Shown here: positions 4,366-52,500 of the stretch, piece by piece
Numbering within the stretch: position 1 is the stretch's first letter
How the letters are laid out: the number at the start of each line of letters is the position of its first letter
From: Actinobacillus arthritidis
GTDB taxonomy: Bacteria > Pseudomonadota > Gammaproteobacteria > Enterobacterales > Pasteurellaceae
Assembly (NCBI RefSeq): GCF_029774155.1
Contig: NZ_CP103833.1
Location: 1,054,001-1,118,000 of the forward strand
Reading direction: 5' to 3'
Length of the DNA: 64,000 bases
Notes under the pieces: model-generated
Seen by the model: the letters and a program-made list of their open reading frames with translations, nothing else
What the model was told of the DNA's origin: nothing
Database searches by the model: none
Made by a program: the position numbers and the translations under genes

Positions 4366-5657
4366 ATGATGACTATGAATATTACGCTTTCACAACGCTC
4401 AGCGCCCGAACAATGGGGAAAAAATGCAATTCTGTCTGCCAATCAACACGGTATGACCATCCATCTACAAAAAGATCCATTAACCACCATTCAACGTGCG
4501 GCACGAAAAATAAAGAATCAAGGCATACTAAATGTAACGCTGGTCGGCTCAGAATGGGGATTAGAAGAATGTTGGGCATTCCACCAAGGGTTTGTTAGTG
4601 TTCGTAATGCAGGCACAGTAACTTACCCTGACTTAGCCGAACAACAAGCAGAATTTGATGCTCGAGTATATTGTTCTAATTTTACTCGTACTTTAATTAA
4701 TGAATCTTCCGAAACCCTTACTCCTGAGAATTTAGCTCAAAAAGCGGCGGAGTTTATTAGCAAACAATCAATACAATATCTTGGCAAAAATGTGGTATCA
4801 GCAGAAATCATTAGTGGTGAAGCATTAAAACAACACGGCTATCACGGTATTTGGACGGTAGGCAAAGGTTCGGCAAATAAACCAGCATTACTCAAATTGG
4901 ATTTCAATCCAAGCAACGATATTAATGCACCGGTGCTTGCTTGTTTAGTCGGCAAGGGGATTACTTTTGATACTGGCGGCTATAGCATTAAACCGAGTGA
5001 TTCAATGAGTACAATGCGTACTGATATGGGCGGTGTTGCCTTATTAACCGGTGTATTAGGTTTTGCGATCAGTCGTGGCTTAACACAACGTGTAAAACTT
5101 TATCTATGCTGTGCAGAAAATATGGTAAGCAGTACTGCGTTTAAATTAGGCGATATTATTGAATATCGCAATGGCGTGACCGCAGAAGTGCTGAATACCG
5201 ATGCGGAAGGTCGCTTAGTATTAGCGGATGGTCTAATTGAGGCGAGCGAACAAAATGCACAATTTATCATTGATGCGGCAACCTTAACCGGTGCGGCAAA
5301 AGTAGCTGTCGGCAATGACTACCATTCAGTACTTTCAATGGATGATACATTAACCGCTCGCTTATTTAATGCGGCAAAAGCGGAAAATGAACCATTCTGG
5401 CGTTTACCATTTGAAGAATTTCATCGCTCACAAATTTCGTCATCCTTTGCCGATATTGCCAACATCGGATCTGTACCGGTCGGTGCGGGAGCAAGTACTG
5501 CAACGGCATTTTTATCATACTTTGTTAAAGATTACGCACAAAATTGGTCGCATATCGATGCTTCAGCCACTTTCCGTAAAACAGCGAGTGATTTATGGGC
5601 ACCGGTGCAACCGGTTTAGGGATGAAAACGCTAGCTAATATGCTTTTATCTCAATAA
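4366..5657 (+). CDS. pepB: Peptidase B (leucyl aminopeptidase family M17), frameshifted near its end
   Basis: Cytosolic two-metal aminopeptidase that trims peptides from the N terminus. The M17 signature NTDAEGRL is at residues 277-284, with the conserved KGITFDTGG lysine motif earlier. As written, the frame stops at 5619 after WAPVQPV. Reading from 5604 one base out of phase gives [17 protein letters not shown] and a stop at 5655-5657, the expected family ending. One base, probably a G in a GCAGC context, appears to be missing around 5600-5605. Three ATG codons (4366, 4369, 4375) are possible starts; AAGGA precedes the first. An uptake-word terminator follows. Confidence 0.92.
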
Positions 5658-5684
5658 GATTTTTGTAAAATTTCCGAAAAATTT

Positions 5685-5726
5685 AACCGCTTGTTCCGCT
5701 AAAATTAGCGTAAAACAAGCGGTTTT
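5685..5726 (+). terminator. Inverted uptake-word terminator after pepB
   Basis: AACCGCTTGTT (5685-5695) and AACAAGCGGTT (5714-5724) form a long stem with a smaller CGCTAA/TTAGCG hairpin nested inside, then several T. Confidence 0.75.
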
Positions 5727-5783
5727 CTGTTGCATTATGTATAATATGACTAATTTTATTTACTTTGCCATTTAGGAACTTAT

Positions 5784-6719
5784 ATGAATTACTTAGAGTG
5801 TGCGAAAGAAACCCTCAGTCTTTATACTCAAGCGATTAGTCAACTTAATCAGCGTTTAGACAGTACATTTAATCAAGTGATTGAAATGATTTTAAACTGT
5901 GAAGGACGTGTCGTGGTTGCTGGGATCGGTAAATCGGGCTTAGTCGGACAAAAAATGGTAGCAACCTTTGCATCCACAGGTACACCTAGTTTCTATTTAC
6001 ATCCGACCGAAGCGTTCCACGGTGATTTAGGTATGTTAAAACCAATTGATGTTGTCATTCTCATTTCTAATAGTGGTGAAACAGATGATGTCATTAAACT
6101 CCTACCCAGTTTAAAACGTTTTGGGAACAAAATTATTGCAATGACCGGCAATCCTCATTCAACCCTCGCTCAACACGCCAATCTTATTCTTAATATTAGT
6201 GTTGAACGAGAAGCCTGTCCTAATAATCTAGCACCAACAACATCGACACTAGTTACTATGGCTTTAGGTGATGCATTGGCAATTGCATTAATCAATGCTA
6301 GAGGTTTCAAAGCAGAAGATTTCGCACGTTTCCACCCGGGTGGTAGCCTAGGTCGAAAATTACTTAATCGCGTAAAAGATGTCATGCAAACCAAACTACC
6401 GGTTACTCAACCGAATGCAGATTTCAGCACGATTTTGAGTGTAATGAACGAAGGAAGAATGGGCGTTGCGTTAATTATGCAAGGCGAAGAATTAAAAGGT
6501 ATTATTACCGATGGTGACATTCGCCGTACACTTGCTCAATTTGGTACACAGAGTTTAGCTAAAACAGCGGAACAAATTATGTCGAAACAACCAAAAACCA
6601 TTGCTGACGATACGTATTTAGCAAAAGCGGAAGAAATGATGAAGGAGCTTCACGTTCACTCGCTTATTGCCTTGAATAATGAAGGTAAAGTATCTGGTAT
6701 TATGGAATTTTCAAGTTAA
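5784..6719 (+). CDS. kdsD: D-arabinose 5-phosphate isomerase
   Basis: Converts ribulose 5-phosphate to arabinose 5-phosphate, the first step of Kdo synthesis for lipopolysaccharide. An N-terminal SIS sugar-isomerase domain (about 35-170) carries GIGKSG and SNSGETDDV. Two CBS domains follow (about 205-311). At 311 residues it is slightly shorter than E. coli KdsD; the end GIMEFSS is shorter than usual but the second CBS fold is essentially complete. Its stop codon overlaps the ribosome site of greB, ten bases upstream of that gene's start, which suggests translational coupling. Confidence 0.92.
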   Translation: MNYLECAKETLSLYTQAISQLNQRLDSTFNQVIEMILNCEGRVVVAGIGKSGLVGQKMVATFASTGTPSFYLHPTEAFHGDLGMLKPIDVVILISNSGETDDVIKLLPSLKRFGNKIIAMTGNPHSTLAQHANLILNISVEREACPNNLAPTTSTLVTMALGDALAIALINARGFKAEDFARFHPGGSLGRKLLNRVKDVMQTKLPVTQPNADFSTILSVMNEGRMGVALIMQGEELKGIITDGDIRRTLAQFGTQSLAKTAEQIMSKQPKTIADDTYLAKAEEMMKELHVHSLIALNNEGKVSGIMEFSS

Positions 6720-6729
6720 GGGCATTTCG

Positions 6730-7218
6730 GTGGCGAAATCAAACTATATTACACGTAGTGGCTGGCAAGTCTTAGATCAAGAGCTTAAATTCTTATGGAA
6801 AGACGAACGTCCTAAAGTCACACAAGCCGTTTCCGAAGCAATTGCGTTAGGCGATCGTAGCGAAAATGCAGAATATATCTATGGTAAACGCCGTTTACGA
6901 GAAATAGATAGACGAGTTCGTTTTTTATCAAAACGTTTAGAAGTGTTACAAATTGTGGATTATCACCCTAAACAAGAAGGTAAAGTCTTTTTTGGTGCAT
7001 GGGTTGAACTAGAAAACGAACAGGGTGAAACAAAGCAATATCGTATTGTCGGCTGTGATGAATTTGACCCGGCAAAAAATTGGATTTCGATTGATTCCCC
7101 TGTTGCTAGAGCATTAATTGGCAAAGAAGTTGATGATGAAATTAAAGTCGATACGCCACTTGGCAAAAGCACACTTTATATTAATAAAATTTGGTATGAG
7201 AAAGAAGCATTATATTAG
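6730..7218 (+). CDS. greB: Transcription elongation factor GreB, GTG start
   Basis: Binds the RNA polymerase secondary channel and stimulates cleavage of backtracked RNA. The N-terminal coiled coil contains LGDRSENAEY and KRRLREIDRR; the C-terminal FKBP-like domain contains EGKVFFGAWVE and ISIDSPVARAL. I chose GTG at 6730 (VAKSNYITRSGW) because AAGGG lies at 6718-6722, seven bases upstream. An upstream in-frame ATG at 6679 would add 17 residues encoded inside kdsD and has no homologous counterpart. The result is 162 residues, close to the usual 158. It forms a transcription unit with kdsD. Confidence 0.92.
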   Translation: MAKSNYITRSGWQVLDQELKFLWKDERPKVTQAVSEAIALGDRSENAEYIYGKRRLREIDRRVRFLSKRLEVLQIVDYHPKQEGKVFFGAWVELENEQGETKQYRIVGCDEFDPAKNWISIDSPVARALIGKEVDDEIKVDTPLGKSTLYINKIWYEKEALY

Positions 7219-7241
7219 AGATAATTTCAATATATAAAAAA

Positions 7242-7279
7242 GCACCTTAATAATTCGTAATATCTCATTATTAAGGTGC
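7242..7279. terminator. Bidirectional terminator between greB and raiA
   Basis: GCACCTTAATAAT (7242-7254) is the exact inverse of the arm at 7267-7279. A-rich and T-rich flanks on either side fit termination of both convergent genes. Confidence 0.85.
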
Positions 7280-7314
7280 AATTTAATCAGCTTACTTAAT
7301 TTATAATTTAAATA

Positions 7315-7626
7315 TTATACATTTAGTGTCGTATCTGTACGGCGAGCTTCGTTTTTATGAACCAATTTATTTAATTGTGTTTCCAGTTTGGTTTCTACTT
7401 CATTGATTGCTTTATATAAATCTTCATTATCAGCCTTCGCAAAAAGTTCTCCAACTGGAGTGCCGATTGATGCTTCAACTTCGTAACTATTTGGCAATTT
7501 ATGTATCATAAAATGTGGATTAATTAACTGAGTTTGCCATTTTTCGAGTTTCGCTAAACGTTCTTCAATATGGGTACGGATTGCAGGAGTCACTTCCATT
7601 TGTTTACTTGAAATATTGATTGTCAT
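7315..7626 (-). CDS. raiA: Ribosome-associated inhibitor / hibernation factor RaiA (YfiA)
   Basis: Small cold-shock and stationary-phase protein that binds the 30S decoding region and keeps ribosomes idle. The start [14 protein letters not shown] and the motif [17 protein letters not shown] match E. coli YfiA closely, as does [13 protein letters not shown]. At 103 residues it lacks most of the acidic C-terminal tail of E. coli RaiA and is nearer in length to Hpf, but the body is RaiA-like. Single gene with a good ribosome site (GAGGAAA). Confidence 0.9.
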
Positions 7627-7790
7627 AGCATTTTCCTCTTTGTGAAGGGGTTATTAAATTGATTTCAAAATATGACTTTTACTCCAAAATATCAAGTCAA
7701 AAAATGAAGTAAAACTTAAAAATTTGATCTAGTTAACACTTTTTCTGTGTTTTTGCTTATAATCTATCCGAAATAGAAGGATAACGGAAA

Positions 7791-8732
7791 ATGACCGAGA
7801 ATAAAAAAATTCCTCCATTTGAATTGGATTTTTTACACCCTAAATATTGGGGATTATGGTTTGGATTGGGCCTATTTAAATTAATTTTATGTTTGCCTTA
7901 TCCTATATTGGTAAAACTTGGCAAAGGATTAGGAAAACTATTTACTAATCTCGGATTTGGTAAACGAAGAATCCGTATTGCTCGCCGTAATTTAGAACTC
8001 TGCTTCCCACACTATTCAAACGAGCAAATTCAAGAAATTCTAGAGCAAAATATTGAATCCGTCGGTATGGCGATCATTGAAACCGGAATGGCGTGGTTTT
8101 GGTCGGATAAACGAATCCTAAAATGGTCTAAAATAGAAGGGCTGGAATATCTCAAAAATCAGCCTGCAGACTCAGGGATTTTATTAGTTGGAGTACATTT
8201 TCTAACATTAGAAATGGGTGCTCGTATTGTGGGACTTCATCATCAAGGTGTGGGCGTTTATCGACCTAATGATAATCCGCTATTGGATTGGATTCAATTT
8301 CGAGGCAGAGTACGCTCAAATAAGGCAATGCTTGATCGTAAAGATCTGCGAGGAATGATTAGAGCTTTAAAAGCGGGCGATACCATTTGGTATGCTCCAG
8401 ATCACGATTATGGACGAAAAAATAGTGTATTTGTGCCGTTTTTTGCCGTATCAGAAGCCTGTACCACAGCTGGCACTCGTATGTTACTACGTTCTGCACC
8501 GAATACCGTTGTCGTGCCATTTACACCAATCCGAAATGCAGATTTTTCCGGATATACCGTTAAAATCAGCCCTGAGGTTGATTTTAGTGAATGTGAAAAT
8601 GAACTGGATACCGCAACCAAAATGAATAAAGTTGTAGAAGCGGAGATTCTTAAATCAGTAAGCCAATATATGTGGCTTCATCGACGTTTTAAAACTCGTC
8701 CACAAGAATCAGATAAAAATCTATATGATTAA
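7791..8732 (+). CDS. lpxL: Lipid A biosynthesis lauroyl acyltransferase (LpxL/HtrB)
   Basis: Inner-membrane acyltransferase that adds a secondary acyl chain to Kdo2-lipid IVA. An N-terminal membrane anchor (about 22-45) precedes the acyltransferase core with the catalytic H-x4-E motif at H136 and E141 in GVHFLTLEMG. The family blocks GVYRPNDNPLLDW and WYAPDHDYG are present. The length of 313 residues is standard. The sequence is nearer LpxL than LpxM. Single gene with its own terminator. Confidence 0.92.
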   Translation: MTENKKIPPFELDFLHPKYWGLWFGLGLFKLILCLPYPILVKLGKGLGKLFTNLGFGKRRIRIARRNLELCFPHYSNEQIQEILEQNIESVGMAIIETGMAWFWSDKRILKWSKIEGLEYLKNQPADSGILLVGVHFLTLEMGARIVGLHHQGVGVYRPNDNPLLDWIQFRGRVRSNKAMLDRKDLRGMIRALKAGDTIWYAPDHDYGRKNSVFVPFFAVSEACTTAGTRMLLRSAPNTVVVPFTPIRNADFSGYTVKISPEVDFSECENELDTATKMNKVVEAEILKSVSQYMWLHRRFKTRPQESDKNLYD

Positions 8733-8736
8733 AAAT

Positions 8737-8772
8737 AACCCGACATACGCAATATAATGTCGGGTTTATTTT
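8737..8772 (+). terminator. Terminator after lpxL
   Basis: AACCCGACAT (8737-8746) and ATGTCGGGTT (8757-8766) form a 10-bp stem followed by a T-rich tail. Confidence 0.9.
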
Positions 8773-8891
8773 TTATTTGCTGATTTTTACGAAAATTTTA
8801 CCGCTTCTCCGCAAAAAATACTTGCATATTTAAGACGAATTTTGCAAGCTAACAAGAAATTTGCACATAACAAAAAATACAGGAGATGATT

Positions 8892-9782
8892 ATGGCAACC
8901 CCACTATTTCACGGCAGTATCGTTGCATTAGTAACCCCAATGACTCATGGCGAAGTAAATTACGATGAATTAAAAAAATTAGTTGAATATCACGTCGAAG
9001 CCGGTACGCATGGTATTGTATCTGTCGGTACAACAGGTGAATCAACCACATTGAGCATTGATGAGAATGTTAAGGCAATCAAGAAAACCGTGGAATTTGT
9101 CGCAGGACGTATTCCGGTTATTGCCGGAACTGGTTCAAATGCAACTAGCGAAGCTGTCACAATGACAAAATTATTAAACGGTAGTGGTGTTGCAGGTTGT
9201 TTAAGTGTTGTACCTTATTATAATAAACCAACTCAAGAAGGCATGTATTTGCACTATAAAGCAATCGCTGAATGTACTGATTTACCACAAATTTTATATA
9301 ACGTACCGGGCCGTACCGGTAGCGATTTAAAACCAGAAACCATCGGTCGTTTAGCTGAAATCCCAAATATTGTTGGTGTAAAAGAAGCAACAGGTGATTT
9401 AACTCGTCTTCCATTAATCAAGCAATTAGCTGGTGAAGATTTTATTTTCTTAAGCGGTGATGATGCGACTGGTTTAGAATCAATGAAACTTGGTGGTCAA
9501 GGTGTAATTTCAGTAACCAATAATGTTGTCTGCAAGCAGATATGGCAAAAATGTGTGAACTTGCCTTAGCCGGTAAATTTGAAGAAGCGGAAGCGATTAA
9601 TCAACGCTTGATGGCATTACACCATGATTTATTTATTGAAGCAAACCCAATCCCAGTAAAATGGGCGACCTATAAATTAGGTTTAATTAGTGAGCCGAAT
9701 TTACGCTTACCATTAACGACCTTATCAGAAAATGCTCAACCAACCGTATTAGCAAGCATTACAAAAAGCTGGTTTAATTTAA
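8892..9782 (+). pseudogene. dapA: 4-hydroxy-tetrahydrodipicolinate synthase, interrupted by frameshifts in this sequence
   Basis: First committed enzyme of lysine and diaminopimelate synthesis, condensing pyruvate with aspartate semialdehyde. The Schiff-base lysine is K164 in [12 protein letters not shown], and VGTTGESTT and YNVPGRTG are present. The start is ATG 8892, six bases after AGGAG; the ATG at 8886 abuts that site. After residue 212 the frame breaks at 9526-9537, where GTTGTCTGCAAGCAGA stands for an expected GTTGCTGCAGCAGA (two extra bases, each at a GCNGC word). A second shift, one extra A at 9762-9766, hides the normal ending TKAGLI and stop at 9780-9782. DapA is normally essential, so sequence error is the likely cause. 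Confidence 0.9.
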
Positions 9783-9800
9783 CCGCTTGTGACTCAAACA

Positions 9801-9830
9801 AAACCCCGTACTTTGATACGGGGTTTTTTA
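9801..9830 (+). terminator. Terminator after dapA
   Basis: AAACCCCGTA pairs with TACGGGGTTT across a six-base loop, followed by T residues. An uptake word in reverse orientation lies just upstream at 9782-9790. Confidence 0.9.
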
Positions 9831-9871
9831 TTCAATAAGCAGTTAAACTTTCTAAAAGTTACAACACGTTA

Positions 9872-11409
9872 TTAAAACAGTTCCACAACTTTAGCGAATA
9901 CCATTAACACACCATAAGCAAGTGGAACAGTAACAATAATCCAACGTAACCACACCATACAGCCACCATGAACAACTTCTTCTGCAACCAAATAAGTATC
10001 CGAAATCACGGTTTCATCACATGGTTTTACACTATGTGCCGCCTCTTTAATCGGTAACTCGTGATGTTTTTCATGCACGGCTTTCACGCTTAAATTGCAA
10101 ATCAGTCCAATAATTAATAAACCTGCCATAATATACATTGTAATGCTGTATGCTTGTGCTCGCCGGTACACCACTATCAATTTGCATCTGGCGAATATAG
10201 TTTACGAGTACAGGACCAACTACTGCGACCGTAGACCACGCAAGTAATACTCGACCGTGGATTGCTCCAACTTGATAACTACCGAATAAATCACGTAAGT
10301 AGGCAGGAATCGCGGCAAAGCCACCACCGTACATTGAAATAATCACACAGAAGCCGATTACAAATAAGGCTTTATTGCCACTCTCCCCTAATGACGGAAT
10401 CAGAAAGTAAAGTACCGATCCCAATAAGAAGAAAATAGAGTATAAGTTTTTACGTCCGATTTTGTCCGAAATACTCGACCAAAAGAAACGTCCTCCCATA
10501 TTAAACAAGCTGAGTAAGCCGACAAATCCGGTCGGCTAAGGTGCTGATTGCCGCTTGTTTACCGACCGAAACTTCGGAAAATAATTCTTGAATCATTACC
10601 GATGCCTGACCAAGCACACCGATTCCTGCCGTTACGTTTAGACATAAAATCCAAAACAGTAACCAAAATTGTGGTGTTTTCATTGCTTTATTTACACCGA
10701 CATTATGTGAGCTAACGAGTTTATTAGTAGATGGTGTCGCAACAAAACCTTTTGGCTTCCATTCCGGGTGAGGCAAACGAATGGTAAACACGCCAAACAT
10801 CATAAAGATGAAATAGAAAATGCCTAATACAATAAAGGTTTCAACAATACCGACAGACGTAGGGCTACTAAAGAAATTCATTAATGCCACAGAAATTGGT
10901 GAAGCGAGCATTGCCCCGCCGCCAAAGCCCATAATCGCTAAACCGGTTGCCATTCCGGGCTTATCAGGGAACCATTTCATTAACGTTGAAACAGGGCCAA
11001 TATAACCAAGTCCTAAACCAATTCCACCTAATACACCGTTCCCCAAATATAACAACCATAGATTATGTGTATGTATACCAAAAGCGACGACTAAAAAACC
11101 CAAGCTAAAACAGATCGTTGCAACAAACATTGCCTTACGAGGACCAACACGCTCCATCCAAGTACCAAACAGTGCGACTGAAGCCCCCAATACCGCAAGT
11201 GCAATACTAAATACCCAACCAACGGTTGTTAGCTTCCAGTCATCAGCAACTGATTGAGTAATACCAATAACTTTCGTTAGTGGTGCATTGAATACCGAAT
11301 AAGCATAAATTTGTCCGATAGATAAATGTACGGCAAGTGCGACAGGAGGAATAAGCCAGCGATTAAATTGCAGAGGTGCAATCGTTTTTTCACGATCTAA
11401 GAATGACAT
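9872..11409 (-). pseudogene. MFS transporter, oxalate/formate antiporter-like (OFA family), broken into three frames
   Basis: A 12-helix major facilitator resembling OxlT and E. coli YhjX. The N-terminal half (from ATG 11409) has HLSIGQIYAYSVFNAPL, GGIGLGLGYIGPVSTLMKWFPDKPGMATG and a large central loop; the C-terminal half has GGRFFWSSISDKIGRKN. The frame breaks twice. Around 10529-10535 a T is inserted in GGCGGC (plus strand), and around 10158-10164 a T is inserted in TGCCGC. Correcting both yields one continuous protein. Family members exchange small carboxylates, and the substrate is unknown. A perfect PurR-type palindrome sits 63 bases upstream of the start. Confidence 0.82.
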
Positions 11410-11471
11410 GGAAGCTCCATTTAGAGGTTATTAACAATAATTTAACTTAATTATAACAGCATTTCATGCTC

Positions 11472-11487
11472 ACGCAAACGTTTGCGT
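11472..11487. promoter_or_regulatory. PurR/LacI-family operator upstream of the MFS gene
   Basis: ACGCAAACGTTTGCGT is a perfect 16-bp palindrome identical to the ideal E. coli PurR box. It lies upstream of the MFS start at 11409 and downstream of folD. Binding by PurR is inference; another LacI-family repressor with the same core is possible. Confidence 0.7.
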
Positions 11488-11512
11488 AAGAAAAAACAAA
11501 AGAAATTCCGAT

Positions 11513-11539
11513 AAAAAAGCCTCTTTTAAAAAGAGGCTT
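11513..11539 (-). terminator. Terminator after folD
   Basis: On the minus strand AAGCCTCTT pairs with AAGAGGCTT across a short loop, followed by six T. Confidence 0.88.
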
Positions 11540-11558
11540 ATGTAAAAATAAATTAAAA

Positions 11559-12416
11559 TTAAACCGCTTGTAAATGAGCTTGGTAAGCCTGAAGCGTATT
11601 TTGCATCAACATCGCAACCGTCATTGGACCAACGCCACCAGGCACAGGGGTAATAAAACTCGCTTTTTGTGCCGCTACCTCATATTCTACATCACCGACT
11701 AATTTTCCCTCCACGCGATTAATTCCAACATCAATGACAATCGCCTTATTTTTAATCCATTCACCTTTTACAAAATTTGGTTTGCCTACACCGGCAACTA
11801 CAATATCTGCTTGCGAGATATGATAAGCTAAATCTTTGGTACGGCTGTGAGTAACGGTTACAGTACAGCCTGCAAGCAGTAATTCCAAAGCCATTGGACG
11901 ACCGACAATATTTGATGCACCGACAACAACGGCGTGTAAACCGGCAAGATTTACGCCTGTACTTTCCAATAATTTCATTACACCGTATGGAGTACAAGAA
12001 CGTAAAGTAGGAATTTTCTGGCATAAACGCCCTACATTATAAGGATGAAAACCGTCTACATCTTTATGTGGCACAATCGCTTCGGTGACTTTCGTTGCAT
12101 CAATCTGTTTCGGTAGCGGTAATTGCACTAAAATGCCATCAATAGACTCATCATTATTTAATTGTTCAATAATTGCTAATAATTCTGCTTCACTGGTTTC
12201 TGCCGGAAGATCATAAGATTTCGATTCAATACCAATTTCGGCACAACTTTTACGCTTGCTATTTACATAAACCTGAGAGGCAGGATCCATGCCTACCAAA
12301 ATCACTGCTAACCCCGGTTTACGTTTTCCTTGTGCCGTATAAACTTGAATTTGCTCAGCAATATTTGCTTTCACTTGTTTTGCGACACTCGTGCCTGAAA
12401 TAATTTGTGCGGACAT
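11559..12416 (-). CDS. folD: Methylenetetrahydrofolate dehydrogenase/cyclohydrolase FolD
   Basis: Bifunctional cytosolic enzyme that interconverts 5,10-methylene-, methenyl- and 10-formyl-tetrahydrofolate, supplying one-carbon units for purines and formyl-Met-tRNA. The family motifs are [26 protein letters not shown] and the Rossmann segment [15 protein letters not shown], ending with [16 protein letters not shown]. The length of 285 residues is normal. A PurR-like palindrome upstream fits purine-linked control. It has its own terminator. Confidence 0.96.
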
Positions 12417-12442
12417 CGGTTCTCCTCTAATTTTGATATGAA

Positions 12443-12458
12443 TTGCAAACGTTTGCTA
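12443..12458. promoter_or_regulatory. PurR-like operator upstream of folD
   Basis: The core GCAAACGTTTGC (12445-12456) is a perfect 12-bp palindrome matching the centre of the PurR box; the outer bases deviate. It lies 29 bases before the folD start codon, a position suited to repression. Confidence 0.6.
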
Positions 12459-12607
12459 TTGTGTCAGAAAACTGACGATTTGCAAGAAAGATATAGGTCT
12501 ATGTTCTATTTGCATTAATGAGCAAAGTTCAAGCAATCAATTCTCTATCTTAAAAAAAGAGATTGACGGGAGTTAAGATAAGTCTATAATAAAACTCACT
12601 TTTCAGT

Positions 12608-12684
12608 CGGCGAGTAGCGCGACTTGGTAGCGCAACTGGTTTGGGACCAGTGGGTCGTAGGTTCAAATCCTATCTCGCCGACCA
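12608..12684 (+). tRNA. tRNA-Pro (anticodon TGG)
   Basis: A 77-base cloverleaf with acceptor CGGCGAG/CTCGCCG, anticodon loop containing TTTGGGA (anticodon TGG), T-loop GGTTCAAATCC and an encoded CCA end. It is very close to the E. coli proline tRNA that reads CCN codons. It is followed 39 bases on by tRNA-Arg, probably in one transcript. Confidence 0.96.
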
Positions 12685-12723
12685 CTTTATCCTCATAAAT
12701 ATTTCTTCCTTATCTATTTCATT

Positions 12724-12800
<77 letters not shown>

Positions 12801-12898
12801 TTATCTTTTCTAAAATTAATTTCTTATATTATTCATCTTTTCTTTATTGAAATCTCAATAAAGTTTATCAGACAACGTTCACATCTCAAGTCAAATAA

Positions 12899-12952: not shown

Positions 12953-12978
12953 ATTTTCTTAACTTGTAAACGAAAAAA

Positions 12979-41764: not shown

Positions 41765-44700
41765 TTAACCAAATATTTCATCCATACCGTCAATAAGCTG
41801 TTTGCAAGGTTTTTCAAAAAATACACCGCTATTCGCTGTGCCGTTCATTCCTCGTAAGAATAAATATGCCACGCCACCAAAATCACGCTCATAATCATAC
41901 TGCTCGCCTAAACGCACGCGTAAATAACGATGAAACGCCAGCGTATAAAGCAGATATTGCAAGTCATAACGATATTGCCCGATGGCTTTTTGTAGATTTT
42001 TCTGGCTGTAATCTTGTGCTAAATAACCTAAGAAATTGGACTTATAATCAATCAAATAAAATTTATCGTTGACTTGTACGATACAATCGACAAAACCGCG
42101 TAAATATCCTTCTAACTGCGGTAAATTCAAATCTGGTAAGTTGGCTGATACCGTACTATATTGTTGTAACAACTGATTTAACTTACGTAATCCATCAGCA
42201 TTTTTTAAACGTAAATAGAATTGCCATTCATTCAAACGTTTTGTGATTGGCACATCTTTTAACCTAAATTCTGCTTCGCTAAACGGCGTTTCAAGCACTT
42301 TTTCAAGCCATTGTTGCAAAGGAGTGTACCAATATTCATCTAATCCTAACTGCTCACAAATAGTAAAAACTTGCTCAAAAGCGACCGCTTGTTGGAAATC
42401 ACAATGTTCAAAAAAACGATGTAAAACACTACCGACTTTTGTACTATGAGGAAATTGATAAGCAGAATAAGCCGTATTCTCTTCTAGCCCATCTTGCTCA
42501 TCTAATCCGCCTAAATCAACTTGTCGATCATAATCCTGCACTTTTTCACTCAGTAGATTTTGTCCAGAACTAAGTTGTTCGTTTCGTTCATGATAAGCGT
42601 GCAATGCAGTAAAACTACTAATTTGCCCATCACGTGCAATTTCATGATTAAAAGATCTTGCTTGTAATTCACTCGGCAAAGATATCTTTGGTCGCCAAGT
42701 ATCGACTATTGCCGGCGAACTTAACTCAACCGCTTTATATTTAATGCTTTTACGATCTAAATATTCCTGCGTAGATACCTCCGTAGCAAAAGCGGTCGCC
42801 ACACCAAATTCACCGTTACTCAATAAATAGTGCATTGGATTCCAACCTTCCGCAAAGATAGTTGGCAGAATCAGGTTTAATTGTGACTCGGCACGAGTTA
42901 ACGCAACATATAATAAACGTAAATCTTCGGCAAATTCCGCTTTATCCATTAACGCTTGGGTCGTCTTATCTCTCTTACCTAAATGCCAGCTAATCTGATC
43001 TTGTTCATCTCGATAGAGAGAAATCTTTGGCGTTTCTTCTCCTTGCGGTGGTCGATCTCCTCGATTATTTTTACCAATAAACGGTAGCCATACAATCGGA
43101 TACTGTAAGCCTTTTGAACCGTGAATCGTGATGATTTTGATTAATTCATCCTCACTTTCCAAACGCAGTTGCTGATCTTCCTGTTCCTGTGGATTCTCTA
43201 ATTGACGTTCGTACCAACGTACTAATGCTGATTCATTTTCTAAGCTCGGCATTGCATTTTGCAATAATTCCGCCAAATGTAATAAATCCGTTAAACGGCG
43301 ATCACTATCTGTACCGGCTCGCAGACGGTGAATAATCCCTTCTTGCATAAACAACTGGTGCAACATTGGTAAAATACCTTGCTGTTGCCAAATCTGTTGG
43401 TAGTGAATAAAGGCTGTAACTTGTTTATCCCACGCATTTTCATCATTTTTTAGCCGATAAATCTCTGTCGCCGATAATCCCCATAAACTTGAGCCAATAG
43501 CAGTTAATACGCTCGATTGATGATAAGGATTTAAACAGGCATATAACACCCATTTTAATTCTTGTGCGATGTCCGAGGCATAAACACTACGTCTGTCTGA
43601 CAGAAAGACCGAACGTATACCACGCGTCGCTAAAGCGTCTTTAAGTAAGATAGCTTGATTTTTACCACGCACTAAGATGGCGATATCTTTGGCTTGAAAA
43701 GCGGTAAATGTCTGATCTTTTGCAAAATGTAAACCAAAATCGCCCGCTTCCATTGATTTTAACTGTTGCTGAATCTGATAGGCACAATGTTCCGCGCCTC
43801 TTGTTCGTTAAATTCTGCTTGTAAATAACAATTAAAATGCTCAGCACCGACTAATTGTGTATCCGTCTGCTTATGTTCAACCGCTTGAAAGCGAATACCG
43901 TCATATAAAAACGGACTATGTTCCACACCTTCAAGAAACGTAAACAAACGATTGGTGGCGGTGACAATTTCAGGTAACGAACGCCAGTTTTTTGGTAATG
44001 TTCGCTTTTCTTGTGCTTGTTGCGAAGCGGTCAAATACGTAAAAATATCCGCTCCACGGAATTTATAAATCGACTGTTTCGGATCACCGATCATAATAAA
44101 ACCGCGATTTTGCCGTTCTCCTTGCATAAAGATTTTATGGAAAATCTCGTATTGTTCTTTATCGGTATCTTGGAACTCATCGATCATCGCAAATGGAAAT
44201 AAGCGGCGAATCTGCTCAGCTAACACCTCGCCTCGCTCACTTTTCAACGCTTGATTTAGAAAAGCACGTAAGTCATTAAAACTCTTTTCACTATGTGTTG
44301 CCTTATAATCCGCCAATTTTTGACGAACGGCGGATAAATATTGATAAAGCAATAATGCTTTTTGTTTCTCCGACGTAAATTCTGTCTGATAAGCGGTCCA
44401 AATTTGCTGATTTTTTACCAACAGCGGATCAGATAACGGCTCTGCCCCCTCTTCCGCTTTAGATTGCATAAAATCTTGGCAGAACCGTTCAAATGCTTCC
44501 GGCAAACCTATCTCTTGACTATTTGCCCAATCATTTATCTTCTTAATCCAAGCCGATACTAAATTGCTTTTATATGAAAGTCGGCTGAGTGATTTTTTTA
44601 TCCCCTTAGCATAAGTTTTAGCCAATTCTGCTTGCACCAAGCCAATAATTTGCTCGCCATTATTCAACCAATGCAGTTTTGCTTGCTGAAAGAAATCATT

Positions 44701-45366
44701 CGCTTGTCTAACATAGTGAGCTAAATCGGATTCTACCCAAGATTGCTCAGAAGAAAACGCAGGTAATTCTTTATCGATAAATTGTTGAATATCACGTAAA
44801 GCCTTTTTCGGCGTACCTAAAGATTGCACAATCAATGCCGTTTCATTTAACCCCATCGGATAGAACATTTCTCGCCAAACTTCTTCGCTGATACGGCGTA
44901 ACAGATCACTTTCATCCGCTTGTAGATCACTATCGAAACGAACTCCTGAATCAAATGCAAATTGAAACAACATTTTTTGGCAGAAACTGTCAATCGTAAA
45001 AATACTGGCTAAATCAATCTCTCGTTCGGCAATACGTAAGCGTAGAATCGCTTCTTCCACTCGTTCAATTTGCTGATGTAATTGGAAGAAAAAATCATTG
45101 GTATCATAGGATTGATCCGCATCGTACTCTTGTAAAAACATACGACAGGCTTTGATGTTTTTGCGAATCCGATCACGTAATTCTTCGGTTGCCGCTTTAG
45201 TAAATGTTACCACTAAGATCTGCTCAACTGTTAAAGGCTGACAGCCTACACCCAGCAATAATCGCAAATATAAATTTGCCATAGTAAAGGTTTTACCCGT
45301 ACCGGCAGAGGCCTCAATTAATGCGGTACAATTTAGTGGTAATTCAATCGGAGAAAGGGTTTTCAT
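41765..45366 (-). pseudogene. recB: Exodeoxyribonuclease V beta subunit RecB, split by one frameshift
   Basis: Helicase-nuclease subunit of RecBCD. The N-terminal part (45366-43759) has Walker A IEASAGTGKTFT and helicase motif FAMIDEFQDTD. The C-terminal part has ITIHGSKGLQYPIVWLP, LLYVALTRAESQL and the nuclease core LRGFVDCIVQ...IDYKSNFLG. The frame breaks at 43793-43797: TTCCGCGCCTC stands for TTCCGCCGCCTC, one C lost in GCCGC. Corrected, it is about 1200 residues, as in E. coli. ATG 45366 is favoured over the TTG at 45378. recC and recD are not in this window. Confidence 0.92.
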
Positions 45367-45389
45367 TATTTCACTCAATATTTCTATAA

Positions 45390-46778
45390 TTACTTAATGC
45401 GTTCTAATTTTGATAAGAGTTCATCCGCCGGAATTTGCTGAATTTTGTGCATTTGGTAAATTAACAAACCGGCGACAATACTTAAACTGACGCAAAAAAT
45501 AAACCAAAAGCCTGATCTTGCCATCGGCTCAACAATCCAATCCGTTCTCGCTAAAATATAGCCGAACGGCATACCAATCACCCAATAACAAAACATCGTG
45601 ACATATAAAATCGGCTTAGTGTGTTTATAACCACGCAAAATCCCGTTTGCCACCGCTTGTAACGAATCCGGAATTTGATATACCGCCGCAAACAACAATA
45701 AATGTGCCGCAATTGCAATCGATACCGGGTCGCTGGTAAATGCCAACGGAATAATTTCATCTAAAATCACAATCATAATTGCCGCCAAAGCTAAAAATGC
45801 CCCGGTAATCAATGCGTGATAGCTAATAATTTTTGCCTGTTCAACTTGTTTCTGCCCCAAAGTTTTTCCGACCACAATCGTGGTCGCAATGCTGAAAGAC
45901 ATCGGGATCATAAATAATAAAGAACTGGTTTGCGCTGTCGCCTGATGGCTCGCCACCACTTGCGAACCGAGTGGCGAAAGCAGTAAAGCGGACGCTGAAA
46001 ACAACATCACTTCAGTAAAAGTCGCAAAGCCGATCGGCAAACCTAATTTGCAAATTTTTAGCAAAGTTTGACCGCTTGGCATTTCAAACCAACGATTAAA
46101 TAAGCCGATATCTTTCTGAGATTTATTAGTGTAGCTGTAATGGAATAATAACAAGAACATCACCCAGTTCACGATAGCTGTTGCCACGCCACAACCGACC
46201 GCTCCCATTTCTGGCAGACCGAACTTACCGAAAATAAAAATATAATTGAGCGGAATATTCAGCAATAGCCCGAGAAACATAATACGCATTGCCGGCTTAG
46301 GGTTAGATAAACCGTCATTCATACAACGTAAATTGATACCTAACAATGCAGGAACAACACCAATCGCCATAATCGCTAAATATTGTTGAGATTTAATCGA
46401 GAAGGCTTGCGGCGTATTCATATAATCTAAAATCCAATGACTATTTAGGAACACGAAAATCAAAGGAATTGCACACGCCCAAACCAACCAAAAACCTTGG
46501 CGAATTTGGTGGGCAATCAAATGACGCTGATTTGAGCCATTTAAATAAGAAACAGTTGGAGTGATCGCATTAAGTAAACCTAATACAAATAAAAAGAGAG
46601 GGAAATAGATGGAATTACTTACCGCAATCGCAGATACATCATCATCACTCACCAGCCCCGCCATCACAATGTCAGCCAGCCCCATACCGGCTACCGAAAG
46701 CTGAGAAATAAAAATCGGCAGCGTGAGTTTAAATAGTTTACGTGTGTTTTCCGGATATTTTTGCCATTGCAGATTCAT
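45390..46778 (-). CDS. norM: MATE-family multidrug efflux protein NorM
   Basis: Twelve-helix sodium- or proton-coupled exporter of cationic drugs and dyes. The N-terminal half has LPIFISQLSVAGMGLADIVMAG and the C-terminal half LPIGFATFTEVMLFSASALLLSPLG, the two repeats of the MATE fold. I placed the start at ATG 46778 (MNLQWQKYPENTRK) because GAGGT lies just upstream; the frame to 46868 would add 30 non-conserved residues across an uptake-word pair. 462 residues. Single gene. Confidence 0.92.
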   Translation of the reverse strand: MNLQWQKYPENTRKLFKLTLPIFISQLSVAGMGLADIVMAGLVSDDDVSAIAVSNSIYFPLFLFVLGLLNAITPTVSYLNGSNQRHLIAHQIRQGFWLVWACAIPLIFVFLNSHWILDYMNTPQAFSIKSQQYLAIMAIGVVPALLGINLRCMNDGLSNPKPAMRIMFLGLLLNIPLNYIFIFGKFGLPEMGAVGCGVATAIVNWVMFLLLFHYSYTNKSQKDIGLFNRWFEMPSGQTLLKICKLGLPIGFATFTEVMLFSASALLLSPLGSQVVASHQATAQTSSLLFMIPMSFSIATTIVVGKTLGQKQVEQAKIISYHALITGAFLALAAIMIVILDEIIPLAFTSDPVSIAIAAHLLLFAAVYQIPDSLQAVANGILRGYKHTKPILYVTMFCYWVIGMPFGYILARTDWIVEPMARSGFWFIFCVSLSIVAGLLIYQMHKIQQIPADELLSKLERIK

Positions 46779-46816
46779 AATTACCTCTTTCAAAATACAG
46801 AGGTTATTATACGGCA

Positions 46817-46863
46817 ACAAGCGGTCGTTTTTCGCAAAAATTTTGTAAAATACGACCGCTTGT
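46817..46863. repeat. Inverted uptake-word pair upstream of norM
   Basis: ACAAGCGGTCG (46817-46827) and CGACCGCTTGT (46853-46863) are exact inverses with a 25-base interval containing GCAAAAATTTTGT. It lies between the potD terminator and norM. Confidence 0.8.
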
Positions 46864-46870
46864 AACAACG

Positions 46871-46903
46871 AAAAAGCCCTCGAAAATCGCTTCTCGAGGG
46901 CCT
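46871..46903 (-). terminator. Terminator after potD
   Basis: GCCCTCGA and TCGAGGGC form the stem; on the minus strand T5 follows. Confidence 0.9.
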
Positions 46904-46922
46904 TATCTATTCAGCTAACGAA

Positions 46923-48008
46923 TTATTTCGCCGCTTTTAACTCTTGGTAATATTTTTCGTAAAGTTCGATTGCATCACCTACATCGTCTTGCCATTGTGC
47001 CGCTTTTAACACTTCAGCTGTCGGATAGATTGCCGGATCTTCGGTAATCTCTTTCGGTAATGTTTTTAACGCTTCTACGTTTGAAGTCGGGTAACCGATT
47101 TCTAAAGTTAATTTTTCCGCAACCGGTGCGCTTAATAAGTAGTTGATTAACTTATGCGCATTTTCTTTGTTTTTCGCATTCGCCGGAATGGCTAACGTAT
47201 CAACCCAAAGCACAGGGCCTTCTTTCGGGAACACCATATTTACCGGTGCTTGCTCTTTTTTCGCAATACGTACAGAACCGTTCCATAATTGGCCTACTGA
47301 TACCTCACCTGAGATAAATGAGTTAGCCGGGTTATCCGACGTGAAAGAAAGTACGTTTGGACGTAATTTTTTCAATTCTTCGTAAGCCGCTTTAATCTCT
47401 TCCGGATTAGTTGTGTTCGGGTTTTTACCTAATTTTAATAACGCAATATTAAATACTTCACGTGCATCATCTAATAATTGTACTTTATTGGCAAACTCAG
47501 GTTTCCATAAGTCGCCCCAAGATGTGAACGCATCGCCTTTATAGTCATTTGAGTTAAATGCGATACCCGGTGCACCTAATAATTGCGGTAAAGAGTATTT
47601 GTTACCTTGGTCATAAGGCTTGTTTAACCAATCTTGGTTTAACTCTTTGATTACAGGAAGTTTTGCGTGATCTAATTCCGCTAACATACCTTCTTTCGCC
47701 ATTTTTGACACGAAGTAGTTAGAAGGTGCGATAACATCATAACCGCCGTCTTTACCTTGTAATTTTAATTTCGCATACATGGTTTCGTTAGATTCAAGGC
47801 TTGAAACCTCTACTTTGATACCAGTTTGCTTTGTAAATTCATCTAACAAGCCTTCAGGCACATATTCAGTCCAAGTATAAAGGTGAACTGTTCCTGCTCG
47901 CCGCTGGTTGAGCCGCAGCTTCAGTCGCTTTTGGCTTTTCTTCATTACACGCTGTTAATGCAACTGTTGCTAAACCTGCCGCAAATAAACCCGCTAATTT
48001 TTTCATTT
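46923..48008 (-). pseudogene. potD: Spermidine/putrescine-binding lipoprotein PotD, frameshifted near its N terminus
   Basis: Solute-binding protein for polyamines (ABC import). The start is ATG 48008 with GGAG upstream. The signal peptide MKKLAGLFAAGLATVALTAC has a lipobox, unusual relative to E. coli PotD but seen in Pasteurellaceae. The frame breaks at 47894-47902, where CCTGCTCGCCGC stands for CCTGCCGCCGC (plus strand; one extra T). The mature part begins VHLYTWTEYVPEGLLDEF and is intact. No potABC genes are adjacent; it has its own terminator, so it is an orphan binding protein. Confidence 0.9.
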
Positions 48009-48251
48009 AATTTTTCTCCATTAAAGAAAAGATGAGTAAAAAATATAGCCTTGCCTAAGGGCTTAAAAGACGAGGGCGATTTTAAGCCACCCCCTAGATT
48101 TTGCAAGGATTTTCTAATCAAAATGGCAATTTTTTGCAAATTATCTTTAATAATTAATCCACATTGTCGCTTTTACCTTGAAATCAGCAAATTTAGCGTT
48201 ATATTAGTAACGTTTTTTTCAGTGATATATTTGAAACAAAGAGGATTTAAA

Positions 48252-48848
48252 ATGACAACTCAAAACGAAAATGCACAAGCTCAAACAGAAGAAGTTGAAG
48301 TTGCAAACGAAGCACAGTTAGAGCAAGCAACCGAAGAACAACAAGAACAACCTATCGAAGCTGAATTAGCGGCGGCTTATGCACGTATTAATGAGTTAGA
48401 AACTTATATTGCGGAAGCGGACAACCGTGAAAAAGATATTCAATTACGTGCGCAAGCGGAAATCCAAAATATCCGCCGCCGTGCCGAACAAGATGTGGAA
48501 AAAGCACATAAATTCGCACTTGAAAAATTCTCCAAAGAATTATTAACCGTAGTAGATAACCTTGAGCGTGGCTTAAATGCACTTGATACGGCAGTCACCG
48601 ATGAAAAAACACAAGCATTGGTTGATGGTGTGGAAATGACCCATAAAGAATTTATCTCGACTTTGGCTAAATTCGGTGTAGAAGCGGTCGGTGTTGTCGG
48701 CGAAGTCTTCAATCCGGAACTTCACCAAGCAATTTCTATGCAACCGGCGGAAGGTATCGAAGCAAATCATATCAGCGTGGTTTTACAAAAAGGTTATACC
48801 CTACAAGGCCGCGTACTTCGCCCGGCAATGGTAATGGTTGCTGGTTAA
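48252..48848 (+). CDS. grpE: Nucleotide exchange factor GrpE
   Basis: Releases ADP from DnaK in the Hsp70 cycle. An acidic Gln/Glu-rich N terminus precedes a long dimerising helix ([30 protein letters not shown]) and the beta domain with LHQAISM and [21 protein letters not shown], the family signature. The start is ATG 48252 after GAGG; the longer frame from 48051 runs across the intergenic region and is not conserved. 198 residues. Divergent from potD. Confidence 0.95.
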
Positions 48849-48858
48849 TTCCTAAAAG

Positions 48859-48896
48859 AACCGCTTGTTATGCTGTGGCGAACAAGCGGTTAAATT
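48859..48896 (+). terminator. Inverted uptake-word terminator after grpE
   Basis: AACCGCTTGTT (48859-48869) and AACAAGCGGTT (48881-48891) form an 11-bp stem, followed by AAATTTTT. Confidence 0.82.
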
Positions 48897-48918
48897 TTTC
48901 TGACTTTTGGCAAATGTT

Positions 48919-49371
48919 ATGTCCCTACAATTCAACCCTATCTCGCTTTTTTTGGTCGCACTGATTTTTCTTGGTGTGATCGGAAACAACAATTCAATTA
49001 CCATTGTCGCGGCAGTATTATTACTGGTGCAACAAACATTCCTTAGTAAATATCTACCTTTCTTAGATAAACACGGTTTAACTGTCGGGATTATTATTCT
49101 GACTATAGGTGTATTAAGCCCGATTGTTTCCGGCAAAATATCCCTCCCCTCCTTCTCTGAGTTTTTAAATTGGAAGATGTTACTTGCCGTAGTTGCAGGA
49201 ATTGCAGTAGCTTGGTTAGGTGGCAGAGGGGTAAATTTAATGGGTAGCCAACCGCTGTTAGTTACCGGATTACTCGTCGGTACGATTATCGGTGTGGCAT
49301 TACTTGGCGGCGTGCCGGTTGGTCCATTAATCGCCGCAGGCATCCTTTCTCTATTAATCGGTAAAGGCTAA
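48919..49371 (+). CDS. DUF441 (YeaL) family small membrane protein
   Basis: A 150-residue integral membrane protein with about four hydrophobic helices ([64 protein letters not shown]). The repeated glycine-rich [14 protein letters not shown] and [17 protein letters not shown] are family features. Function unknown. I start at ATG 48919 ([10 protein letters not shown]), the family start; an in-frame TTG at 48907 is less likely. An uptake-word pair lies on each side. Confidence 0.86.
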
Positions 49372-49394
49372 TTGGTAAAATTTATGCAAAATCA

Positions 49395-49440
49395 GACCGC
49401 TTGTTCCCCTCACCCATTAAGTGAGCGCCGCAAGCGGTTT
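49395..49440. repeat. Inverted uptake-word pair between DUF441 gene and hrpA
   Basis: GACCGCTTGT at 49395-49404 faces CAAGCGGTTT at 49431-49440, with a small CTCAC/GTGAG hairpin between. It may end the DUF441 transcript. Confidence 0.65.
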
Positions 49441-49541
49441 CTTCTGCCTACTGTTTCCCCTCAATTTAGGCTATAATTTGCCTCAAAATATCTCGCATAA
49501 TGCCGAATATCGTTAAGGCAATACATAGTTAAGACAAGACA

Positions 49542-52500
49542 ATGAAACCTTCACAAAAAAATTTCAAAAATAGACCGCTTGATGAGAGCCAAAAAGCATT
49601 AATCGCCAACTTAAAAGAACTCACCAATACCGATTATCGTCGTTTACGTTCTCGTATTCACGGCATTTCTGCCATCAAAAAACAAGAAACCAAAAACAAT
49701 GTGATTGCGGAAATTGAACGTGAAATTCTCTCGGCACAAGCGACTTTCCAAGCCAGAAAAGCACAACATTCCAGCCTTGAAATCACTTATCCCGATTTAC
49801 CGGTTTCCACTCGTCGTGAAGAAATCTTAAAACTGATTGCGGAAAATCAGGTGGTGGTGATTGCCGGTGAAACCGGTTCGGGTAAAACTACTCAGTTACC
49901 GAAAATGTGCTTGGAACTCGGGCGTGGCGTAAAAGGCTTAATCGGGCATACTCAGCCTCGCCGTTTGGCGCGCGTTCAGTGGCGAATCGAATTGCCGAAG
50001 AATTAAAAAGCGAAATGGGTGCAACTGTCGGTTATAAAGTACGCTTTAATGATCAAGTGGGCGAAAATACCCTTGTAAAATTGATGACGGACGGTATTTT
50101 GCTTGCCGAAATCCAAAACGACCGCTATCTCAATCAATACGATACGTTAATTATTGACGAAGCTCACGAACGCTCGCTCAACAACGATTTTATCCTCGGC
50201 TATCTGAAACAAATTCTGCATAAACGTCCCGATCTAAAAGTGATCATTACCTCGGCAACCATTGATGTGGAACGTTTTTCTCGCCACTTTAACAATGCAC
50301 CGATTATTGAGGTTTCCGGACGCACCTTTCCGGTGGAAGTGCGTTATCGCCCTGTTGTTGAGGAAGAAGATCAAGACCAATTACAGGGCATTATTAATGC
50401 AGTCGATGAGTTACAAGCCGAAGGTCGTGGCGATATTTTGATTTTTATGAGCGGTGAACGTGAAATTCGTGACACTGCCGAAGCCCTACAAAAACAAGAG
50501 CTAAGATTCACTGAAATTCTACCGCTTTACGCTCGCCTCTCGGCGCCGAGCGGCAACGCATTTTCCAGCCAAGCGGTCTAAATCGTGTGATTTTAGCCAC
50601 CAACGTGGCGGAAACCTCACTTACCATTCCGAATATCAAATATGTGATTGATACCGGTACGGCACGTGTTTCTCGCTATAGTTACCGTACTAAAGTGCAA
50701 CGTTTGCCGATTGAGCCGATTTCACAAGCCTCTGCCAACCAGCGAAAAGGCCGTTGTGGACGAACCAGCGAAGGGATTTGTATCCGCCTCTATTCAGAGG
50801 AGGATTTTAACGCACGTCCGGCATTTACCGATCCGGAAATTCTGCGTACGAATCTCGCTTCGGTTATTTTACAAATGACCTCACTCGGTTTGTCGGATAT
50901 TGAGGCATTTCCATTTGTTGATCGTCCGGATACTAGACAGGTGCAGGACGGTGTGCGATTGTTGGAGGAACTCGGGGCAATCCGTAGGGGCGTATCGCAT
51001 ACGCCCGATAGTTCTGATGATATTAAAGAGGGCGTACACAGTACGCCCCTACAAAAAAATCATCTGACAAAAATTGGTAAACAACTTGCTCAACTCCCAA
51101 TCGATCCTCGCTTAGGCCGTATGGTCATTGCCGCTAAGACAAAACGGTTCGTTACACGAAGTGATGATGATTGTCTCCGCACTTTCGATTCAAGATCCGC
51201 GTGAGCGTCCGCAAGAACGCCAACAGGTCGCGGATGAAAAACATCACCGTTTTGCCGATAAAGATTCCGATTTCTTGGCGTTTGTGAATTTGTGGCATTA
51301 CATTCAAACCCAACAAAAAGAACTGACCAAAAACCAGTTCCGCAAGCAATGTCAGAAAGATTTTCTCAACTATTTACGTGTACGTGAATGGCAAGATATT
51401 TATCATCAACTACGTCTTGCTGTACGTGAAATGGGCTTGCCGATTAATAGCGAAGATGCAAATTATCAGCAAATTCACACCGCTTTACTGACCGGTTTGC
51501 TGTCGCATATCGGGATGAAAGACAGCGAAAAAATGCACTATCTCGGGGCGAGAAATGCACATTTTTATGTATTCCCAACTTCAGTGCTTTTCAAAAAGCG
51601 ACCGAAGTGGCTTGTCGCGTCCGAACTGGTAGAAACCACCAAATTGTGGGCAAGAACCGTGGCAAAAATTGAACCGGAATGGATTGAGCCACTCGCAGGG
51701 CATTTACTTAAACGTAGTTACAGCGAGCCGCATTGGTCAAAATCTAAAGGTGCGGTGATGGCGTATGAAAAAGTCTCGCTCTACGGTATTCCGGTGGTAG
51801 CGAATCGTCTTGTCAATTACGGTTCAATTGATCCGACTGTTAGCCGCGAAATATTTATCCGCTCGGCAATGGTTGAGGGCGATTGGCATAATAATTACAA
51901 ATTTTTCAAAGAAAATAACCGCTTGATCAAAGAAGTGGAAGACCTCGAGCACAAATCTCGCGCCGAGATATTTTAGTGGACGAACAAACCCTGTTCGACT
52001 TCTACGATCAACGAATCGGAACAGAAGTGGTATCCAGCCGCCATTTTGATACATGGTGGAAAAAAGCGGGTCAAAAAGATCCTGAATTGCTCAACTTTGA
52101 AAAATCATTCTTAATGAATGAAAACGCCAACACGGTCAGCGATTTGGATTTCCCGAATTTTTGGTATCAAGGGCGACTTAAACTGAAATTAAGTTACCAA
52201 TTTGAAATCGGTAAAGATCACGATGGTGTCACCGTGCATATTCCGTTACCTTTACTTAATCAAGTAGAGCCGGAAGGCTTCGACTGGCAAATTCCAGGGC
52301 TTCGCCATGAGCTAGTGGTGGCGTTAATTAAATCATTACCGAAAGCAACTCGCCGTAATTTTGTACCGGCACCGAACTATGCAGATGCGTTCTTAGGCAG
52401 AGCCGAGCCGTATCAAAAACCATTGCTAGAAAGTCTGGCTTACGAGCTTCGCCGTATGACCGGTGTAACTATTGATCCGGAGCTGTGGGATCTGTCGCAA

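Follow-up and report, generated by a model that had tools for sequence, protein, structure and literature searches.

We examined a stretch of 64,000 bases of the Actinobacillus arthritidis genome (positions 1054001-1118000 of the assembly's one contig, which is 2,266,746 bases long; hereafter the window), in which conserved genes appear to be broken by frameshifts. Our analysis indicates that these frameshifts are almost certainly errors of the assembly and not mutations of the bacterium, and that the word GCWGC, where W is A or T (thus GCAGC or GCTGC), is probably modified in this strain and miscalled in native long reads. In the living cell, the genes that look broken very likely remain whole. 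An earlier note made from the letters of this DNA had traced one-base indels (insertions or deletions) in its genes to the broader word GCNGC and had suggested a corresponding methyltransferase. With the comparison described here, the A. arthritidis assembly is a fresh case of an already published kind of error.

Eight genomes of the same genus were used for comparison, five of which (G002-G006) supplied syntenic stretches of 66 kb, with 27-58 kb of each alignable to the window. An additional 200 kb of the A. arthritidis genome was compared with 200 kb of G004. The 3.5-kb potD region of the window finds a full-length match in seven of the congeners at 92-94% DNA identity, and a match in two pieces at 82-88% in G008. 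The first and most general observation concerns word content:

1..64000, no strand: loss of GCWGC across the window, with 5 GCWGC words present and GCSGC (S is G or C, thus GCGGC or GCCGC) normal at 98

The number of GCWGC words expected from shorter words is 71.5, which makes GCAGC/GCTGC the most depleted 5-mer of the window, and the expectation for GCSGC is 112.8. The syntenic stretches of the five congeners contain 60-108 GCWGC and 86-159 GCSGC words, with an observed to expected ratio for GCWGC of 0.65-0.93. Among these six genomes the loss is restricted to the A. arthritidis assembly. The next 200 kb of the same assembly contain only 23 GCWGC words, with 0-5 in each 20-kb piece. The loss of GCWGC consequently extends through all 264 kb examined, with GCSGC spared.

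Other words are also depleted in the window, namely GGCC (44 seen versus 269.5 expected), CATG, CGCG, GCGC and CCWGG. GGCC and CCWGG are comparably rare in the five congeners, and thus those two look like ordinary avoidance throughout the genus; CATG, CGCG and GCGC are outside that comparison.

The fate of individual words was followed over 211 kb of DNA aligned to G004. Only 10 of the 326 GCWGC words of G004 are the same in A. arthritidis; 269 are changed by substitution only and 47 carry an indel, which alters the length by one base in 31 cases. For all 5-mers in these alignments, 76.3% are unchanged and 0.92% carry an indel, versus 14.4% with an indel for GCAGC/GCTGC, which is both the least preserved and the most indel-prone of the 5-mers with n>=25. 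This count of indels per 5-mer was a test set beforehand, and its outcome bears out the proposal that the breaks are tied to a motif. The earlier note had, however, described the damage as one-base indels. Indels are indeed concentrated on the word, yet they constitute a minority of the damage (47 of the 316 altered words) and most of it is substitution (269 of 316). As a substitution erases the original word, such changes are invisible to a reader of the sequence alone.

The spectrum of replacements is also characteristic. GCGAC (94 cases) is the commonest substitute for a GCWGC word of G004, followed by GCGGC (70 cases). GCWGC is frequently replaced by GCSGC between congeners as well (15-24% by our own arithmetic), which makes it probable that real divergence accounts for much of the GCGGC class. 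As a negative control, five comparisons of congener with congener gave an indel in 0-1 of 43-86 GCWGC words and a change to GCGAC/GTCGC in 0-1. The corresponding figures for the window are 13 of 89 words with an indel against G004, 6 of 53 against G006 and 5 of 44 against G005, with 29, 10 and 11 words, respectively, turned into GCGAC/GTCGC. At the protein level, 153 of the 554 codons that overlap a GCWGC word are nonsynonymous, versus 1,434 of 57,721 elsewhere, stops counted, a rate 11 times as high.

The 16S ribosomal RNA (rRNA) genes provide a test at sites of known constancy. The six copies in the assembly were compared with 19 full-length copies from the congeners; six partial congener matches were left out, and three congeners had no match. 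Of the GCWGC words, five do not vary across the 19 full-length copies, and these five are altered in 30 of 30 word-copies of A. arthritidis. They include the 530 loop, which is part of the decoding centre and where the universal 515F primer anneals. Three non-overlapping GCSGC words served as controls and are unaltered in 18 of 18 word-copies, and a fourth GCSGC overlaps the 530-loop word. When congener-invariant columns are counted, 13 of 36 differ inside the GCWGC words plus one base beside them, versus 13 of 1,436 outside. The word at 1048 is weaker evidence, as it lies near a stretch where the strain differs anyway. Alteration of invariant words in all six copies, the 530 loop included, would hardly be viable in a living cell; it is the strongest evidence we have and the reason that we regard the DNA as miscalled. 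In 369 genomes of the class, the altered 530-loop pattern occurs in the six A. arthritidis copies and at one place in G424 that by eye looks like protein-coding DNA. A second affected genome was thus not found with this pattern among the 369, from which genomes without an assembled 16S gene would escape.

These results bear on whether the genes are truly being lost, as would occur in a strain undergoing pseudogenisation, for example in a host-restricted lineage. The frame breaks are genuinely present in the sequence, and some Pasteurellaceae are host-restricted. Such decay would nevertheless have to focus its indels on one word (14.4% versus 0.92%), to favour nonsynonymous change 11-fold in the codons over that word and to alter the same word in each of the six 16S copies, at positions that the ribosome cannot do without, and we regard it as highly improbable.

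For the frame breaks themselves, the window was compared with G002-G006 and indels within 8 bases of each other were grouped into clusters. There are 70 clusters whose net length breaks the frame inside a congener open reading frame (ORF). In 14 of these, each covered by at least two congeners, the A. arthritidis assembly is the odd one out against all congeners that cover the site. Seven of the 14 touch a congener GCWGC word (<=2 bases), two of the seven in just one congener of five; the chance of touching such a word is approximately 3% per congener by arithmetic from the word counts. Another 16 clusters are covered by G004 only, with six that touch GCWGC and two that touch only GCSGC. In the remaining 40 the congeners disagree among themselves and three touch GCWGC; these are mostly ordinary divergence. 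Gene names were checked on the pieces with NCBIfam and Pfam, where several fragments score under the curated cut-off. The breaks in named genes are as follows:

5600..5601, + strand: frame break at the end of pepB (PepB profile); odd one out against 3 of 3 congeners, GCWGC in 2 of 3
9529..9534, + strand: frame break in dapA (DapA profile) at a congener GCWGC word; one congener covers the site
9754, + strand: second frame break, near the end of dapA, at a congener GCWGC word; one congener covers the site
10161 and 10531, - strand: two frame breaks in a major facilitator superfamily (MFS) transporter gene at congener GCWGC words; one congener covers the sites
15605..15607, - strand: frame break in ribD (RibD profile); odd one out against 3 of 3 congeners, GCSGC in 2 of 3
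30589, - strand: frame break in glpK (GlpK profile); odd one out against 5 of 5 congeners, which have GCSGC
32649..32654, - strand: frame break in glpF (PF00230, Major intrinsic protein); odd one out against 5 of 5 congeners, GCWGC in 4
38935..38938, + strand: frame break in nupC (NupC profile); odd one out against 3 of 3 congeners, GCWGC in 2
43795..43800, - strand: frame break in recB (RecB profile); GCSGC in 4 of 5 congeners and GCWGC in 1 of 5
47899, - strand: frame break at the start of potD (PotD profile); GCWGC in 5 of 5 congeners
49966-49970, 50544, 51135-51138 and 51961, + strand: four frame breaks in hrpA (HrpA, C-terminal piece); odd one out against 5 of 5 congeners at each

The hrpA breaks all touch a congener GCNGC word (GCWGC in 5 of 5 at 50544 and in 1 of 5 at 51135, otherwise GCSGC), and the best profile match of the MFS gene is to the L-lactate MFS transporter family, under its cut-off. 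Comparison with the congeners recovered the breaks that the earlier note had placed in pepB, dapA, the MFS gene, glpK, glpF, nupC, recB, potD and hrpA. Its site in hipB (41584) has no covering congener and falls outside the comparison. For its lipoprotein it gave no coordinate; small shifts are seen near 29.8 kb. An A-run at the end of dapA and the break in ribD had been set aside as exceptions to the motif, yet both touch congener GCNGC words (9754 and 15605-15607), and so does the supposed exception in hrpA if 51135-51138 is the site meant. The argument that a combined loss of dapA and the glp genes is not real fares well: the errors are bound to a motif, and these genes are very probably not lost.

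Two further features of the window were recorded. A flavin mononucleotide riboswitch (122.8 bits) is located at 16730-16855 on the - strand, immediately upstream of ribD. An unbroken ORF of 1,481 residues at 53734-58179 on the + strand has RTX calcium-binding repeats and a serralysin-type C terminus, and the longer congener alignment blocks end on both sides of it.

The methylation, the sequencing platform and the specificity of the enzyme are what we infer from the pattern of errors. The strain would modify the palindromic word GCWGC, most likely by placing 5-methylcytosine (m5C) on the first C in each strand. Its native DNA would have been sequenced on a long-read platform, most likely nanopore, with a base caller untrained on that modification. 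Reads from both strands would then be miscalled at nearly every GCWGC site, and the error would be kept in the consensus. Most sites would receive a substitution, typically GCAGC to GCGAC, and approximately one site in seven an indel that breaks the frame.

A closely similar situation is described in the Modpolish paper, which reports low-quality nanopore genomes of Listeria (PMC10687267). Four of these genomes have GCAGC/GCTGC errors together with a methyltransferase-bearing defence system, and whole-genome amplification cured the errors. As in A. arthritidis, the motif is GCWGC, consensus mismatches number thousands per genome and mismatches outnumber indels; the counts given there are 1,533-5,670 mismatches and 7-306 indels. 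According to that report, four of the affected strains share the methyltransferase-bearing system, which is absent from the good strains. The two cases differ in that the Listeria errors were proven with Illumina reads and whole-genome amplification, whereas the A. arthritidis case is comparative only (PMC10687267). Methylation-induced nanopore errors in Klebsiella and other bacteria are likewise reported as systematic wrong calls near modified bases with strain-specific motifs (PMC11610573). Those errors, however, occur at different motifs and are described as single purine or pyrimidine ambiguities, in contrast to the near-complete rewrite of GCWGC in A. arthritidis. No account of this error was found in the literature on GCWGC or GCAGC with Actinobacillus or Pasteurellaceae, judged by titles.

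It could also be argued that the platform or polisher makes a motif-specific error of sequence context, for which no DNA modification is needed. Polishing models can introduce systematic errors, and the evidence for modification presented here is comparative, not direct. Nonetheless, five congeners retain GCWGC, among them two single contigs with a completeness of 100%, although all five may come from other platforms, and the damage to both forms of the word with GCSGC largely spared fits the target of an enzyme. In addition, the published nanopore errors at GCWGC are reported to vanish on amplification (PMC10687267). A context error without modification is, in our judgement, very unlikely.

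The genome contains three matches to PF00145, which correspond to an intact m5C methyltransferase of 314 residues (133465-134406; 296.7 bits) and to one gene in two pieces (12686-13644). Directly upstream of the intact gene is one for a 529-residue protein (131875-133461) that has a REase_II match in PADLOC (E=6.8e-14) and no NCBIfam match. An identity as NgoFVII was considered for this protein and dropped, as its C-terminal match to the Pfam family RE_NgoFVII_C lies under the cut-off (20.1 versus 23.8 bits). A profile search for a solved relative gave nothing convincing, with two matches at E values of 0.44 and 0.55. On these profile matches the protein may be called type II nuclease-like, and no closer label is claimed. 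Its relatives at E<=1e-3 number 302; among the best 120 of these, most are without a name and the named ones are nearly all called hypothetical protein, two having a restriction endonuclease name besides. The methyltransferase at 133 kb is the likely modifying enzyme, judging from its class and gene neighbourhood, with the 529-residue protein as its probable partner.

This gene pair is rare among relatives. No match to the nuclease was found in the eight congeners, with G061 as a positive control, and in a search of 274 genomes of the class it was found in the A. arthritidis genome only. Matches to the methyltransferase in the eight congeners are remote (22-39% identity). In two draws of 121 genomes of the family, a close methyltransferase (82%) and nuclease (54%) stand side by side in one other genome, G061. 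The GCWGC density of G061 is normal (136 in 100 kb), and thus such a pair alone does not empty a genome of GCWGC. This is relevant to the idea that A. arthritidis truly avoids GCWGC under pressure from the restriction enzyme that it carries, while some of its genes also decay in the ordinary way. A depleted word and a restriction-modification pair in the same genome are what that idea calls for. Avoidance would be expected to proceed by single and mostly synonymous changes, however, and what is seen are double changes from GCAGC to GCGAC, frameshifts and broken rRNA; G061, with adjacent relatives of both genes, is undepleted at 13.6 GCWGC per 10 kb. We give avoidance practically no credence.

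The nearest plasmid-borne relatives of the 133-kb methyltransferase are 59-62.5% identical to it. Three of these plasmids were examined. On those of Streptococcus and Lactococcus the methyltransferase (61-62.5%) adjoins an annotated nuclease of the Bsp6I family, and on a B. subtilis plasmid (59.6%) a hypothetical protein occupies the nuclease position. The recognition word of Bsp6I is reported as GCNGC (PMC9799307). Although the A. arthritidis enzyme resembles the methyltransferases of these Gram-positive systems, the plasmid nucleases are short (genes of 543 and 573 bases) and the A. arthritidis neighbour has 529 residues with a weak NgoFVII-type C-terminal match; a Bsp6I-type nuclease was not found beside the methyltransferase. 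The methyltransferase that the earlier note had implied is therefore represented by an m5C gene of a fitting class, for which the two plasmid relatives suggest membership of the GCNGC class.

Known enzymes with this or a similar target include EfaRFI, which makes the Gm5CWGC mark of E. faecalis OG1RF (PMC4894674), and the Listeria systems LmoJ2 and LmoJ3, with the targets GCWGC and GCNGC (PMC10059834). The E. faecalis mark is what the A. arthritidis error pattern would predict (PMC4894674). EfaRFI and LmoJ2 also share with the A. arthritidis pair an m5C methyltransferase and a partner nuclease (PMC4894674, PMC10059834, PMC10734518), a likeness of gene arrangement. M.BatI, a GCDGC-specific m5C enzyme, is reported to methylate GCWGC on both strands and GCSGC on one (PMC8936443). 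With a mark of the M.BatI kind both strands of GCWGC would be miscalled, and GCSGC would remain callable from the unmarked strand. M.BatI is described as a prophage-borne orphan (PMC8936443) and is likened to the A. arthritidis enzyme by specificity alone.

The same artefact could instead be due to another enzyme, either the split m5C methyltransferase or one outside PF00145, a sub-case that overlaps with our preferred explanation. The split gene is also a PF00145 match and its split frame could be an error of the same type, but close relatives beside nucleases of the Bsp6I (GCNGC) family were found only for the 133-kb enzyme, in a search made for that enzyme alone. We consider another enzyme unlikely, with a chance that is still appreciable. 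The pieces of the split gene match congener enzymes at 26-40%. Its locus has 0 GCWGC in 3,456 bases, and the aligned DNA did not reach the break, which is possibly another false one.

Several observations weigh against miscalling of a modified GCWGC as the explanation for the breaks. Isolated GCSGC words show an excess of indels (4 of 222 versus 30 of 13,156 CG-rich control words; Fisher p=0.0023), and among the 14 odd-one-out breaks four touch only GCSGC and three touch neither word. Additional words are poorly kept relative to G004 without carrying indels, such as CCAGG/CCTGG (15 of 47 the same) and CGCGC (9 of 30). The 16S genes also differ at 13 of 1,436 congener-invariant columns outside the words, nine of these in the short stretch near the word at 1048. 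Finally, the share of indels is higher than in the Listeria genomes as reported (PMC10687267). The weak GCSGC excess could mean that GCSGC is slightly modified in addition. Between congeners, however, 7-26% of GCSGC words appear as GCWGC in the partner genome. If some GCSGC words of the congeners were likewise GCWGC in the A. arthritidis strain, an excess of about this size would result. The earlier choice of GCNGC as the error word was thus right in that the errors are motif-specific, and it is better replaced by GCWGC, since GCSGC is normal in number and its excess can be explained by divergence. An enzyme with GCNGC specificity is possible if the base caller handles methylcytosine in a CpG context, as in GCGGC.

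The consequences extend beyond the window, as the affected assembly is the single genome that represents its species in a one-genome-per-species set. Extrapolation from the 15.2 GCWGC per 10 kb of G004 gives approximately 3,400 sites in the genome, nearly all of which would be wrong, with false indels numbering several hundred; the six 16S genes would be wrong as well. Users of the assembly would infer that functions have been lost (dapA, glycerol use, RecB and HrpA) and would work with a distorted 16S and false gene counts. A cheap screen for missing motifs combined with the 16S 530 loop would flag similar genomes and point to their methyltransferases. More tentatively, at odds that we put slightly short of even, the scars that missed calls leave in finished genomes may be readable as a methylome without raw data. 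The scar in A. arthritidis would then give the in vivo specificity of its restriction-modification pair as GCWGC on both strands, and would assign the family of the 529-residue protein, with its 302 relatives, as GCWGC restriction nucleases distinct from the Bsp6I enzymes.

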